From contig NZ_JACHMF010000001.1 in the NCBI RefSeq assembly GCF_014204895.1, forward strand, positions 310,001 to 374,000: DNA of 64,000 nucleotides, given 5' to 3'. Of this stretch, positions 41,918 through 48,929 are shown piece by piece. The position numbers and the translations under genes were made by a program. The stretch's first letter is position 1; every line of letters begins with the position of its first letter. Below the pieces are notes generated by a model. The model was not told the DNA's origin and did not search any database. It was given only the letters and a program-made list of their open reading frames with translations. The stretch comes from Paractinoplanes abujensis. GTDB taxonomy: Bacteria > Actinomycetota > Actinomycetes > Mycobacteriales > Micromonosporaceae.

Positions 41918-43951
41918 ATGCCGACCCCGTGCTCCCGCCGCCCACCCCGGACGTATCCTGCATTCTCCGGAGCGGCCGCCGCCCTGACCGCCCTCGCGGT
42001 CATCGCGGTCCCCACCGAAGCGCACGCCGCTATGCCCGCTACCTCGCACGGACCCTCCGGCGAAGCGGTCGTCGCGGTGCCCGCCGGCACGCACGGACGA
42101 GCTGACGAATGTGAAGGGGCCCGCTTCACAGCCACCGCCCGGGCTGCCCTCGCGAAGATCACCGTGCTCGATGCCGGTGTGCTGCGCCCCGACCTGCCCG
42201 CGCTGACCGACGTGCGGCTCGCCTCGGCCCGGGGCGACGTCGACAGCGAACGCAGCCCTCACCGTACGGTCGCCACCGGCCGCTACGCCGACGCCGAACT
42301 GCTCGGGCTGCGGGTCCCCGGCGCCCCACGGGCGGGCACGGGTGCCGAGAGCCGCGCGCCCTCCGGCCCCGGCCCGGCCGAGACCGACGCCCCAGCCCGA
42401 ACCGGAAGCGGCCCGTCCCCCACGCCCAACCAGCCCGCCGCCGATCCGGCGCCCGAGATCGGGAATCCCGAGCCCGGCCGGCAGACAGCCAACTCCGGAC
42501 CTCGCGCGGCCACCTCCGAGCACCGCGCGGCCACCTCCGAGCACCGCGCGGCCACTTCTGGGCGTCGCGCAGACACCGGGCAGCGCGTGGACAACTCTGG
42601 GCGGCGCGTGGACAACTTCGAGCATCGCGCGGCCACTTCTGGGCGTCGCGCAGACACCGGGCAGCGCGTGGACAACTCTGGGCGGCGCGTGGACAACTTC
42701 GAGCATCGCGCGGCCACTTCTGGGCGTCGCGCAGACACCGGGCAGCGCGTGGACAACTCTGGGCGGCGCGTGGACAACTTCGAGCATCGCGCGGCCACTT
42801 CTGGGCGTCGCGCAGACACCGGGCAGCGCGTGGACAGCTCCGAGCAGCGCGCGGCCACCTCTGGACAGCGCGCGGACAGCTCCGAGCACCGCGCGGCCAC
42901 CTCCGGGCAGCGCGTGGACACCTTTGAGCAGCGCGCGGCCACCTCTGGGCAACGCGTGGACGCCTTCGGGCAACGCGCGGACAAGAACGGGCACCGCGTA
43001 GGCGACAAAGGGCTGGTCGGTGTCAACGCCGGCGGTCTGGCCACCATCCGGCTGGGTAAGTCGACCGCTGACGCGCGCTGGGAAGAGGCGTACCGCTGCG
43101 GTGGGACGGGACCGCTCACCCGCAGCGCCACGATGCTCGCCGGTGCGCAGTTGTTGGGCGGGGGCGGCACCATCCCGGCGATCCGCGCGATGCGTCCGGC
43201 CGGAGCCGGCGAGCCCACCAGCTTGCTGAAGCTGGGCCCCACCGGCTCCGCCCGGAGCGGCACCGACCTCGTACGCAAAAAGGGTCGTCTCGCCGTGACC
43301 GCGGGCGCCGGGGTGGCCCTGTCCGATGTGACGCTGTTCGCCGGCACCCCGCAGCAGGTGTCGATCAAGGTCGTCACGCAGCCCGCGCTGACCGTCACCG
43401 CGACCGGCTTTCCCGCCCACGACGAGGTCGATTATCGCCCGGCTGTGCTCGAGGTGACCGCGGCGGGCCGGCCGGCCGCCACCCTCGACGCGCGGGACGC
43501 CGGCGTCGGGGTCGAGCTGCTGGGTGGTCTCACGTCGTCGTCGCTGCTGACGGCCAAGATCTCGCTGGGCTCAGTCCGTCAGGACAAGACCGGAGACGCC
43601 GTACGGGCGGAGGCCGCGGCAGTGCGCGTCGAGGTCATGACGGGCGGCGCGCACCTGCTCGACGTCGCGCTCGGCCACCTGTACGCCGAGGCGTCCGCCC
43701 CGCCGCTGCTGACCGTCCCGATCCGGCCGAGGCTCAGAACGTTCGAGAAGCCCGCCGCCCCGGCCGAAGCCACTGCCGCGGCGACGGCTCCGCCGGTGGC
43801 CCCTGCCGTCGCACGGCCGTCACCCCGTACGGGGGCAAGCTTTTTGGCTTTGACCGGCGCGAACATCGCCGCCGCGGCCGGTGGGGGACTGCTGCTGATC
43901 CTGCTCGGTGTGGCCGCCGTGGCCTTGACCCGCCGCAGCCGGCGCCGCTGA
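41918..43951 (+). CDS. Sortase-anchored (LALTG) surface protein with Arg-rich tandem repeats
   Basis: 677 aa from the ATG at 41918 (GAGG 7 nt upstream); signal peptide ~1-38 (cleavage AHA-AMP). Residues ~110-200 are Pro/Ala/Gly-rich. Residues ~195-365 are a repeat region of short, mostly seven-residue steps of the form R-(A/V)-(A/D)-T/N-S-G-R/Q, including three perfect copies of a 27-residue block. Next a globular C-terminal part (~370-605) with ITLF-like beta segments (TLFAGTPQQVSIKVVTQPALTV by pattern). The end is a cell-wall sorting signal: LALTG at 643-647, a hydrophobic helix and RRSRRR. LAxTG is the motif of class E sortases. Function unknown; probably a surface structure or adhesin. 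Confidence 0.85.
   Translation: MPTPCSRRPPRTYPAFSGAAAALTALAVIAVPTEAHAAMPATSHGPSGEAVVAVPAGTHGRADECEGARFTATARAALAKITVLDAGVLRPDLPALTDVRLASARGDVDSERSPHRTVATGRYADAELLGLRVPGAPRAGTGAESRAPSGPGPAETDAPARTGSGPSPTPNQPAADPAPEIGNPEPGRQTANSGPRAATSEHRAATSEHRAATSGRRADTGQRVDNSGRRVDNFEHRAATSGRRADTGQRVDNSGRRVDNFEHRAATSGRRADTGQRVDNSGRRVDNFEHRAATSGRRADTGQRVDSSEQRAATSGQRADSSEHRAATSGQRVDTFEQRAATSGQRVDAFGQRADKNGHRVGDKGLVGVNAGGLATIRLGKSTADARWEEAYRCGGTGPLTRSATMLAGAQLLGGGGTIPAIRAMRPAGAGEPTSLLKLGPTGSARSGTDLVRKKGRLAVTAGAGVALSDVTLFAGTPQQVSIKVVTQPALTVTATGFPAHDEVDYRPAVLEVTAAGRPAATLDARDAGVGVELLGGLTSSSLLTAKISLGSVRQDKTGDAVRAEAAAVRVEVMTGGAHLLDVALGHLYAEASAPPLLTVPIRPRLRTFEKPAAPAEATAAATAPPVAPAVARPSPRTGASFLALTGANIAAAAGGGLLLILLGVAAVALTRRSRRR
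42545..42835 (+). repeat. Three perfect 81-bp tandem repeats plus a partial fourth in the surface-protein gene
   Basis: Copies start at 42545, 42626, 42707 and 42788, each beginning CGCGCGGCCACTTCTGGGCG. The first three are identical over essentially 81 bp, the last shortened. 81 bp is 27 codons, so the frame is kept. Near-perfect DNA identity implies recent duplication by slippage or recombination, and copy number may vary between strains. Confidence 0.95.
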
Positions 43952-45597: not shown

Positions 45598-45902
45598 CAG
45601 TTGCCCGCCTTGAAACGCCCGGCCACGTTGCTGTCGGTCATGTCGGCGTCGTCGGACACCGCGCGCAGCAGCTCGGCCACGTGGGCGGTCGCGTCGGCCC
45701 CGGTCTTGAGCTCCTGCAACGCGAAGTCCTGCAGCGGCTGGATGAACGGCAGCGCGAGCGGGCTGCACAGGATGCCGTACACCTCGTCGTGCATGTCGAT
45801 GTACTCGGCGCCGGAGCTGGCCTCGTCACACATCCGGGCGGCCTCGTCGACCATCTTGGCGTGCGCGCGCAGTGCCGCGGAATCGATGTAGACGTCGCTC
45901 AT
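45597..45902 (-). CDS. EspC-like type VII secretion-associated protein (second cassette)
   Basis: 101 aa. Helical hairpin with DSAALRAHAKMVDEAARMCDE in the first helix and the YGILCSPLALPFIQPLQDF middle segment, matching the position of YGFLCQLIPSLLDPIQ in the first cassette. The start overlaps the YbaB-like stop (ATGA). Family assignment rests on size, pattern and context. Confidence 0.8.
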   Translation of the reverse strand: MSDVYIDSAALRAHAKMVDEAARMCDEASSGAEYIDMHDEVYGILCSPLALPFIQPLQDFALQELKTGADATAHVAELLRAVSDDADMTDSNVAGRFKAGN

Positions 45903-46291
45903 CGGCGGCGCTCCTCGGTCTCGTCGTCCTCGGGTGGCGGGGGGAACTGCTCGGCGTACGCCCCGCCGATGAAGTTCGCGGTGTCCGAGCCCGGGCCGTA
46001 GATGCCGGTCACGAGCTCGGTCATCCGCTCAGCCAGGCGGGCCTGGGCGCGGCGGCTGGTTTCGAGGATAAGCTCGGCAAGCTCGCCGGGTGAGAGACGC
46101 AGGGCCCGATCGGTCAGGGTGAGGGCGGCCAGCCCGCCCGACTGGTCGACGGTGACCACGACCTCGCCGCCGCGCGACTCGGCGGCGGCCCGGGTGTCCT
46201 GCATGCGCCGGCTCAGCTCGGTCGTCATGGCGGTCTGCTGTTCGACCTTGCGTTCCCAGTCGACCAGGAAGTCCTCGGGATCGAGCGGCAC
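45899..46291 (-). CDS. YbaB/EbfC-family protein (second cassette)
   Basis: 130 aa. Core VVVTVDQSGGLAALTLTDRALRL and helix ELAELILETSRRAQARLAERM of YbaB; C terminus Pro/Glu-rich. First gene of the leftward cassette 46291 to 44002, in the same order as the first cassette. Confidence 0.82.
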   Translation of the reverse strand: MPLDPEDFLVDWERKVEQQTAMTTELSRRMQDTRAAAESRGGEVVVTVDQSGGLAALTLTDRALRLSPGELAELILETSRRAQARLAERMTELVTGIYGPGSDTANFIGGAYAEQFPPPPEDDETEERRR

Positions 46292-46433
46292 GGGCTACCC
46301 TTCGTCGTCAACGTCTGGTGATCGAGTCCCGCATCGTAACGAACGATTACCGACGGCGATGTCCCCTGATGCGAGGACCGACCGTATCCAGCCGCAACAA
46401 GCCACCGCGAACAGCCCGCCGGCAGTCTGACCG

Positions 46434-47216
46434 CTCACATGTCAGCACGGAGCCGTTGCGGCGAGGCGGTGTCAGCTCCGCCTGCATCTAACATTCCAGC
46501 CGATCGGCACCGCCCCGCCGTGGCGGCCGCACCAGGCAGCGTCTGGCATCTGACATTCCAGCTCGGGGCCGGGGTGCTTCCGTGCCTGACGCTGCCCCGG
46601 TTGGCTTGGTCTTGTCGGGTTGGTTACTTACGTACGGTGGCATCTGACATTCCAGTTGGCGGGCGTGGTGCCTCTGTGCCTGACGCTGGTCGGTTGGCTT
46701 GGTCGTCTCGGGTTGTTGCTTATGTGCGGTGGCATCTGACATTCCAGTTGGCGGCCGTGGTGCTTCCGTGCCTGACGCTGGTCGGTTGGCTTGGTCGTCT
46801 CGGGTTGTCGCTTATGTGCGGTGGCATCTGACATTCCAGCTGGCGGCCGTACTGCTTCTGTGCCTGACGCTGGTCGGTTGGCCGGGTCGTCTCGGGTTGG
46901 CTGCTCACGTGCGGTGGCATCTGACATATCAGCGTGCGGCGGGACGACTGGCGACTCAAGCGATGTAAGGCATCTGACATGTCAGCGAGCCTGGTGGCGC
47001 TGATGCTGCAGCGGGTGTCGTAGCGCTTGGCGGTTCGGCTGACACCTGGGATCTGACATTCCAGCGCTCAGGGCGACGGCGTCGCACTCGTGGGGACGAT
47101 CTATCGGCTTGATCAGCCTGCCGTTGACATCTCGGTGGGCGGCGAGAGCGAGCCGGCGGCCGTGACGTTGCGGGGGTGCAGGCCGGAGGGTTAGCATCTG
47201 GCATCTAACATTTCAG
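46434..47216. repeat. Array of ten 12-bp near-palindromes upstream of GntR-acdS
   Basis: Motif CTGACATNNCAG or near it at 46434, 46488, 46550, 46644, 46736, 46828, 46921, 46974, 47053 and 47205 (twelve bases each). Copies at 46921 (CTGACATATCAG) and 46974 (CTGACATGTCAG) are, respectively, near-perfect and perfect palindromes; the others mostly carry CTGACATTCCAG. All but the first are preceded by ATCT-type bases. Four copies lie in tandem units of 92-94 bp (46547-46917). The motif resembles operators of FCD-type GntR regulators, and a GntR gene starts 71 bp after the last copy. The 46292-47286 gap holds no supported gene, and the frames that cross it are repeat artefacts. Confidence 0.85.
46547..46917. 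repeat. Four tandem 92-94-bp repeat units
   Basis: Units 46547-46640 (94 bp), 46641-46732 (92), 46733-46824 (92) and 46825-46917 (93), each beginning CATCTGACATTCCAG and running through CCTGACGCTG and TCGGGTTG to GGTGG. Unit length is not a multiple of three, arguing against coding. Conserved core plus nearly constant spacing suggests the array grew by duplication. Confidence 0.9.
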
Positions 47217-47286
47217 TGATCGGATCGAACGCCGTCGGGTGGTCTGTGCGGTCTTGAGTGGGGCGCGGGCGGAAGGTGGGCGCGGC

Positions 47287-47919
47287 GTGGAGCGGGTGCA
47301 ACGCAGGCTGTTGCGGGAGACGGCGTACGAGTCGATCCGGGACGCCGTCGTCCGGGGCGAACTGGCGCCGGGAACCGTGGTGAGCACTGCCGAACTGGCC
47401 GATCTGCTCGGACTGTCCCGCGCGCCCGTGCGGGACGCCCTGGCCCGGCTGGCCGGTGAGGGCCTGGTCGAGACCAAACCGCAGAGCTACACCCGGGTGA
47501 CCGAAGTCCTGCCCGACGAGGTGCGGGACGCCGCCGCCGTCGTGCGGTCGATGCATGAGCTGGCCGCGAGCCTCACGGTCGGCCACCTCGAACCCGCCGA
47601 CGTGACAGCGATGCGCGACGCCAACTTCCGGTTCAAGAAGGCCGGCCGATTCGGCGACATCGACGCCGCCATGGCCGCCGACGACGATCTGCACGGTGTG
47701 CTCGTGCGGGCCAGCGGCAACCGCGCCCTGGCGGCCACTATCGAGCGTTACACGCCGCTGATCCGCCGGCTCGAACGCCTGCAGTTCGCCCAGGACCAGG
47801 CCCGCCGCTCGGTGGAACGGCATGACGACCTGATCGCCGCCTGCGTCGCCGGCGATGTGTCCGAAGCTACCCGTCTCACGTCGCTGATCTGGCGTTCGCT
47901 GGAGGAGAGAACCACATGA
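47287..47919 (+). CDS. GntR-family (FCD) regulator
   Basis: 210 aa from the GTG at 47287 ([17 protein letters not shown]) with AGGTGG 7 nt upstream. Winged helix ~1-70: [37 protein letters not shown] by pattern; then an all-helical FCD ligand domain. It shares 4 bp (ATGA) with acdS, so it probably senses ACC or a related amine and controls acdS. The ten-copy motif array upstream is the likely binding region, implying autoregulation. Confidence 0.9.
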
Positions 47920-48929
47920 TCGAGTTCGACCGTTACCCGCTGCTGTTCGGCCCTTCCCCGGTGCACAAGCTCGACCGGCTCACCGCCCACCTCGGCGGCG
48001 CCGCCGTCTGGGCCAAGCGGGAGGACTGCAACAGCGGCATCGCGTACGGGGGGAACAAGACGCGCAAGCTGGAATATCTCGTGGCTGACGCGCTGGCCCA
48101 GGGATGCGACACACTGGTCTCGATCGGCGGTGTGCAGTCCAACCACACCCGGCAGGTCGCCGCGGTCGCCGCGCGGGCCGGGCTCAAGTGTGTGCTCGTC
48201 CAGGAGAGCTGGGTCGACTGGCCGGATCCGGTGTACGACAAGGTCGGCAACATCCTGATCAGCCGGCTCGCCGGGGCCGAGGTGCGGCTGGTCCGTTCCG
48301 AGTTCGGCATCGGCTTCAAGGAGAGCTGGGAGCAGGCGCTGCGCGACATCGAGGCCTCCGGCGGCAAGCCGTACGCGATCCCGGCCGGCGCGTCCGACCA
48401 CAAGCTCGGCGGTCTGGGCTTCGCCAATTGGGCGTACGAGGTGGCGCAGCAGGAGGAGCAACTCGGCGTCTTCTTCGACACCGTGATCGTCTGCTCGGTC
48501 ACCGGCAGCACCCAGGCCGGCATGATCGCCGGGTTTGCCGCCTTACGGGACGCGGGTGGCCGCCCCCGGCGGGTGCTCGGCATCGACGGTTCGGCCAAGC
48601 CCGCCGAGACCCGCGCGCAGGTGGCCCGGATCGCCCGCAGCACGGCGTCGCTGATCGGGTTGCAGCGTGATCTGACCGAGGACGAGATTCTGCTCGACGA
48701 GCGTTACCACGCGGGCACGTACGGCATCCCCGACGAGACCACGCTGGAGGCGATGCGGGTGGCCGCCCGTACGGAGGGAATGGTCACCGACCCCGTCTAT
48801 GAGGGCAAGTCGATGGCGGCCCTGATCGACCTGGTGGCCCGCAGGGAGATCCCGGCCGACGCGACGGTGCTCTACGCCCACCTCGGTGGCCAGCCCGCCC
48901 TCAACGGTTACAGCGCGCTGTTCTCCTGA
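47916..48929 (+). CDS. acdS: 1-aminocyclopropane-1-carboxylate (ACC) deaminase
   Basis: 337 aa. PLP-binding Lys48 in [29 protein letters not shown], and the residues that separate ACC deaminase from D-cysteine desulfhydrase in known structures: Glu in DPVYEGKS (about 296) and Leu in [13 protein letters not shown] (about 323). It opens the cyclopropane ring of ACC, the plant ethylene precursor, giving ammonia and 2-oxobutanoate. GntR-acdS linkage is known from other Actinobacteria. The 3' end overlaps the convergent GH1 gene by 22 bp. Confidence 0.88.

Follow-up and report, generated by a model that had tools for sequence, protein, structure and literature searches.

Within a 64,000-nucleotide stretch (hereafter the window) of the genome of Paractinoplanes abujensis, a soil actinobacterium, we have found an array of ten sites at 46434-47216, directly before a gntR-acdS gene pair, all ten matching a site that is conserved before gntR at every gntR-acdS locus examined in relatives, where it nearly always occurs once. 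We surmise, with a probability of about 60%, that this region is an expanded gntR-acdS control region in which the operator copies serve as a local reservoir of the GntR regulator. The conserved operator, though predicted, is our firm result, while the role of the array is less so.

Genes and repeats at 46434-47216

The array lies between a divergent gene and the gntR-acdS pair, as listed here with window coordinates, strand and evidence:

45899..46291, minus strand: YbaB/EbfC-like gene, first of a type VII-type cassette, divergent (Pfam PF02575, 39 bits; neighbour kept at 4/29 loci)
46544..46927, no strand: tandem array of 92-bp units (TRF, 4.1 copies, 89% matches)
47287..47919, plus strand: gntR, FCD type, 210 aa from GTG 47287 (Pfam GntR and FCD; start aligns with relatives)
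47916..48929, plus strand: acdS, ACC deaminase (TIGR01274; after gntR at 29/29 loci)

The identities given to both genes in an earlier note on this DNA were borne out, with acdS scoring 546 bits against NCBIfam TIGR01274 (cut-off 392) and below the cut-offs of the D-cysteine desulfhydrase models, and with the GntR and FCD domains of the regulator both recognized by Pfam (57.2 and 60.6 bits, each above its cut-off); no NCBIfam equivalog scored above its cut-off for gntR. The note had also placed the start of the divergent cassette 142 bp before the first 12-mer, in agreement with the start of the YbaB-like gene at 46291, i.e. 135 bp left of the first 19-mer described below. A search for RNA families in 46200-47300 returned only two matches, both far below the gathering score. 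Elsewhere in the window, a 692-aa ORF that matches no Pfam family contains, at 42503-42983, a tandem repeat in its coding sequence with periods of 21 and 81 bp.

The ten 12-mers near CTGACATGTCAG that had been described, including the perfect palindrome at 46974, were recovered; they start at 46434, 46488, 46550, 46644, 46736, 46828, 46921, 46974, 47053 and 47205, and all have the same orientation, toward gntR. Across the entire window, 24 matches occur when ≤3 mismatches are allowed, vs. a mean of 20.33 in 100 shuffles, 24 of which reach 24, an ordinary count; the clustering is real, with 11 of the 24 starting inside 783 bp (46434-47205) vs. 0.25 expected (Poisson P 4.5e-15). The eleventh of these (47124, 3 mismatches) was ruled out as a further site, as its 19-mer at 47117 scores -8.0 with the cross-species matrix introduced below.

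Growth of the array by tandem duplication, as the note had proposed, holds for part of it. Head-to-tail units were found by TRF at 46544-46927 (4.1 units of period 92), and the spacings of 94, 92, 92 and 93 bp in this series mark five copies as near-regularly spaced, but the remaining five, 53 to 152 bp apart, are without detectable tandem units, their repeat similarity being limited to the short motif. As to helical phasing of the copies, a first test covered 10.5 bp only and a later one 13 periods; the strongest period, 10.3 bp, had a P of 0.036 when taken alone and of 0.25 over the 13 periods tried, and fixed cooperative assembly via such phasing has no clear support.

The conserved site and its number among relatives

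Relatives of GntR were sought in named genomes, yielding 32 loci, of which 29 were examined (14 from Paractinoplanes/Actinoplanes, 14 from Streptomyces and 1 from Microtetraspora), with three distant partial matches (L242-L244) left out of the site and neighbour counts. At all 29 loci, acdS follows gntR and a counterpart of the proximal site lies shortly before gntR, i.e. an inverted repeat is conserved before the regulator gene, as one would expect of an FCD-type autoregulatory operator; this agrees with the operator-like nature that had been attributed to the sites. Judged by how bases pair across these sites, the dyad conserved among them is CTGACAT-CTAAC-ATGTCAG, an inverted repeat of 19 bp with a 7-5-7 layout, and the 12-mer first noticed corresponds to its spacer plus right arm, the 19-mer beginning 7 bp left of the 12-mer in each copy. 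The symmetry reaches 33 bp with paired changes in Streptomyces-type sites, whose commonest form in ten distinct contexts is TCCATGGA-CTGACAT-CTAAC-ATGTCAG-TCCATGGA or close: 1) counting from the centre of the 19-mer, opposite bases are complementary as far as position 16 in 7-10 of the 10 contexts; 2) the exceptions are positions 2 and 3, which pair in 0 and 5 of 10; 3) at positions 10 and 11, A-T and G-C are exchanged together. Taking the 12-mer as the dyad of the orthologous sites fails at its pair 4, which mirrors in 0/10 Streptomyces-type contexts (and in 5/32 others, which carry no weight, some of these best matches not being at gntR). Since the 12-mer centre fails and the 19-mer centre pairs outward, we read the operator as 7-5-7, and the claim that the dyad is the CTGACATGTCAG palindrome had to be abandoned; the 12-mer is nonetheless possible as a minimal dimer site, because two other arrays, described below, retain it.

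The TAACAT inside the site is likely a -10 box. At 27/29 loci, the site is followed within 2-3 nt by an ATG or GTG in frame with gntR, an arrangement consistent with TAACAT serving as the -10 box for a leaderless transcript. Transcription would accordingly be predicted to begin near 47218 here and at the start codon in most relatives; the gntR start codon lies 70 nt after the proximal site in the window and ~30 nt after it in P. ovalisporus and P. lichenicola. Within the array, CTAAC has become CTGAC in 7/10 copies, a change by which these seven would have lost the -10 box and gained a more palindromic 12-mer, and TAACAT is absent from 8/10. Other FCD-type GntR paralogues (L046-L049) have TGCAATATATTGCA-like palindromes near their start codons, which suggests the same layout with another operator.

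To score the copies, a matrix was built on 28 foreign sites (9 distinct 19-mers), with this genome and P. lichenicola left out. The ten window copies score 16.3-37.2, vs. 13.1 for the best of 1,598,560 background positions in this genome, and a scan of the 64-kb window found no place besides these ten above 13.1. The copies are as follows:

46427..46445, plus strand: 19-mer copy 1, CTGACCG-CTCAC-ATGTCAG (matrix score 17.7)
46481..46499, plus strand: 19-mer copy 2, CCTGCAT-CTAAC-ATTCCAG, retains TAACAT (matrix score 20.5)
46543..46561, plus strand: 19-mer copy 3, CTGGCAT-CTGAC-ATTCCAG, opens the 92-94-bp series (matrix score 23.3; repeats)
46637..46655, plus strand: 19-mer copy 4, in tandem unit (matrix score 17.7; repeats)
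46729..46747, plus strand: 19-mer copy 5, in tandem unit (matrix score 17.7; repeats)
46821..46839, plus strand: 19-mer copy 6, in tandem unit (matrix score 17.7; repeats)
46914..46932, plus strand: 19-mer copy 7, GTGGCAT-CTGAC-ATATCAG (matrix score 18.6)
46967..46985, plus strand: 19-mer copy 8, contains the perfect 12-mer palindrome (matrix score 16.3)
47046..47064, plus strand: 19-mer copy 9, CTGGGAT-CTGAC-ATTCCAG (matrix score 17.7)
47198..47216, plus strand: proximal conserved candidate operator CTGGCAT-CTAAC-ATTTCAG (matrix score 37.2; counterpart at 29/29 loci)
47206-47211, plus strand: likely -10 box TAACAT in the proximal 19-mer (sequence)

The proximal copy has by far the top score, with the other nine well below it, and these nine upstream copies may bind less well than the proximal one. 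Many predicted sites without a promoter, as in an operator sponge, are present, as evidenced by ten copies by matrix and the lack of TAACAT in eight of them.

A single site was found at 28/29 loci and two in P. lichenicola (searched within 1500 bp; 1165 bp in L232), so that the remark that ten sites are unusual stands. Whether both motif and copy number are kept at acdS loci of relatives had been posed as a check on the array; the motif is conserved (29/29), but the copy number is not. At the level of the genus, the 15-mer CATCTRACATTTCAG (≤1 mismatch) was present in 33 of 67 genomes, once in 29 and twice in 2, vs. 8 copies here and 9 in P. lichenicola (reversed control, 3 overall); only part of the single matches were checked for position at gntR. 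Because nearly all relatives examined have one site, the extra copies look like a recent, lineage-specific expansion. In the four relatives that keep the YbaB-like divergent neighbour, the gap to gntR measures 102, 109, 286 and 847 bp vs. 995 bp here; the 847-bp gap, in P. bogorensis, contains one site, indicating that a long gap alone brings no array.

Arrays at other loci and alternative readings

Two more arrays of the 12-mer core occur in this genome, one downstream of a baeRF-family gene, with a convergent ORF beyond it (15 sites, ~37 bp spacing, G000:C1:3421976-3422514), the other in frame inside a 914-aa ORF (19 sites, 36 bp spacing, G000:C1:8826888-8827572). A promoter role is unlikely for either, given that the former lies between convergent ORFs and the latter in frame in an ORF. 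The baeRF array (L061 2976-3514) comprises units of CTGACATNTCAG, many followed by TTGGCC, and some acdS-array copies are followed by TTGGCGG. Units of CTGAYATKTCAG, with a 12-aa repeat, e.g. TDISVGSGRGLP, make up the array in the 914-aa ORF (L062 4888-5572), where ATT, TCA and ACT are over-used (Ile is ATT in 14/14 vs. 2/7 in the rest of the ORF examined); no Pfam family was found for this ORF. Genome-wide, the 12-mer within 1 mismatch occurs at 30 places, with 3, 11 and 10 in the three arrays and 6 elsewhere, vs. 1 per strand for the reversed control. Extrapolating from 13 comparable arrays in 800 kb to ~150 in the genome, the number expected to hold the 12-mer within one mismatch by chance is ~0.005, a rough figure obtained after the fact. 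In the two other arrays, the left arm of the 19-mer is mostly missing, and a single unit, in the 914-aa ORF array, scores as a full 19-mer (16.5, above the weakest window copy). Spread of the motif at unrelated genes, which the earlier note took as evidence against its reading, is in this sense partly found, with two more arrays (~15 and ~19 units) elsewhere, but a single unit scoring as a full 19-mer. The core (≤1 mismatch) was found in none of 29 other baeRF-gene stretches, nor in any of 29 further stretches that hold relatives of the 914-aa ORF; many of these relatives have minisatellites of other sequence.

P. lichenicola has arrays of its own, comprising five 19-mer copies flanked by a GH127 and a LacI-type gene (C33:145059-145379) and three just before a sugar-kinase-like gene (C11:655155-655245). 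The last copy of the former (G033, L109 3060-3380) reads CTGACATCTAACATTTCAG, and the gene at the latter (G033, L276 2656-2746) has SBD_N and NBD_C domains. At GH127 orthologues, no site with ≤4 mismatches was found in 12 stretches (12 of 27 matches, this genome's copy not among them), and the sugar-kinase-like gene had no match in 36 genomes in a search run without a positive control, a negative that carries no weight. The operator-like sequence has, then, multiplied in each of the two genomes, the arrays of P. abujensis and P. lichenicola lying at differing loci. On another P. lichenicola contig, C22 (G033, L275 2660-2685), an operator-like AT-rich stretch coincides with the opening codons of a gene for an aldehyde dehydrogenase, and the P. 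abujensis orthologue, at equal length, has no such stretch; insertion of a site into this gene is not supported, the orthologues having no gap there. Upstream of it, GTGGAATCTAACATTTCAC (L275 509) has a counterpart at G000:C1:8477775.

These findings bear on how the array arose. Drift of a repeat is live and is the main rival to the operator-array reading: the proximal site would be a real operator and the upstream copies a neutral minisatellite, spread by slippage or recombination and invisible to selection. The abundance of tandem arrays in this genome (an 800-kb sample has 13 of ≥3 copies and ≥150 bp, and the window has others), the same 12-mer core in two arrays where a promoter role is unlikely, a copy number that is not conserved among gntR-acdS loci, and array copies that match the matrix less well than the proximal one would all be consistent with this account. 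It has more difficulty with the five copies that, despite unlike flanks, still score above all background. In addition, the two other arrays preserve the 12-mer more closely than the remainder of their units (0.92-0.94 vs. 0.69-0.77), which is unexpected of plain drift, bearing in mind that copies within a tandem array are not independent of one another. On balance, we regard neutral drift as possible but rather unlikely.

That conservation in the two other arrays is highest over the 12-mer, with the left arm mostly absent, and that close pairs of the core occur in 1/354 family genomes, namely this one, could instead point to a different DNA-binding protein that recognizes CTGACATGTCAG at all three arrays, with the likeness to the gntR operator partly coincidental. 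We find this very unlikely, as the ten window copies hold the full 19-mer and symmetry about the 12-mer breaks down at pair 4 in the conserved proximal site. Control mainly of the divergent type VII-type cassette seems more improbable still, to the point of being barely credible: its first gene is close to the first 19-mer and has been kept as a neighbour at four loci, but the orientation of all ten copies is toward gntR, it is at gntR that those four relatives have the site, and 25/29 loci have no cassette neighbour in the 4 kb searched upstream (less in L232).

Proposed mechanism and comparison with known systems

Returning to the expanded control region, the mechanism that we infer, from GntR binding and the transcription start to repression, its effector and the reservoir effect, would begin with one ancestral autoregulatory 19-bp operator at 47198-47216, overlapping the likely -10 box. 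GntR bound there would block transcription of gntR and acdS, to be released by an effector, perhaps ACC; that covering of the -10 box is the mode of repression is proposed by analogy with HypR. Operator copies would then have multiplied upstream in this lineage, partly as 92-94-bp tandem units, giving nine lineage-specific copies, most of them without a -10 box yet with the operator sequence, i.e. predicted binding sites without a promoter. Such copies would most probably serve as auxiliary or titrating sites and so as a local reservoir: with little GntR present they would draw it away from the proximal site, and with ample GntR they would hold it concentrated near the promoter. If the other arrays also bind the regulator, they would constitute a natural chromosomal sponge. 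In a bolder version, which we consider unlikely, the operator of the acdS repressor (or its 12-bp core) is an amplifying sequence in P. abujensis and P. lichenicola, with arrays arising at loci that differ between the two genomes, among them the in-frame coding repeat and the stretch between convergent ORFs, and the arrays jointly form a natural, fast-changing sponge that resets the acdS response; if true, a sponge would tune an enzyme that degrades a plant-hormone precursor.

Among characterized regulators, HypR of Streptomyces coelicolor, likewise an FCD-type GntR protein, is a repressor that controls hydroxyproline use; as judged by EMSA, footprint and reporters, it binds CTNTGC(A/C)ATGTCAC, and the 21 bp that it protects in its own promoter lie over the -10 region (PMC6608401), the position predicted for the site here. 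The HypR half-site ATGTCAC is close to the right arm ATGTCAG of our dyad. In contrast to the ten copies here, no array is reported for HypR in the sections of that paper drawn upon.

FadR-subfamily regulators are described as recognizing TKGT/ACMA boxes, with GT and AC usually 3 nt apart (PMC4494728). Compared by eye with that consensus, the 19-mer has no GT-N3-AC at its centre and lacks the common GT-N-AC pattern, and the HypR site likewise departs from TKGT/ACMA (PMC6608401). Some members have an extra half-site, a single weaker box whose distance from the centre of the site is 7-12 nt (PMC4494728), and CTGAC-AT-CTAAC-AT-GTCAG is similarly readable as three half-sites; unlike those cases, whole sites are repeated over ~790 bp here.

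A GntR gene beside acdS has been described in many Actinobacteria as acd-AR (PMC4048297), and the gntR-acdS pair in the window fits that description. The portion of the account used here names the regulator, gives no operator and makes no mention of a ten-copy array; our literature search, which covered open-licence papers mostly by listing, found no description of an acdS operator array. Our data would supply the GntR-type regulator of acdS in Actinobacteria with a candidate operator, seen at loci ranging from Paractinoplanes to Streptomyces, and the varying number of this operator among relatives (one, two, ten) offers a natural case for the effect of extra cis operators on autoregulation.

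The nearest parallel to the array itself is the DNA sponge, i.e. synthetic decoy repeats of tetO and other operators carried on plasmids (PMC7686491). Like these, operator repeats that lack promoter elements could titrate a regulator; unlike them, the predicted sites here are natural, in cis, and beside the regulator's own gene.
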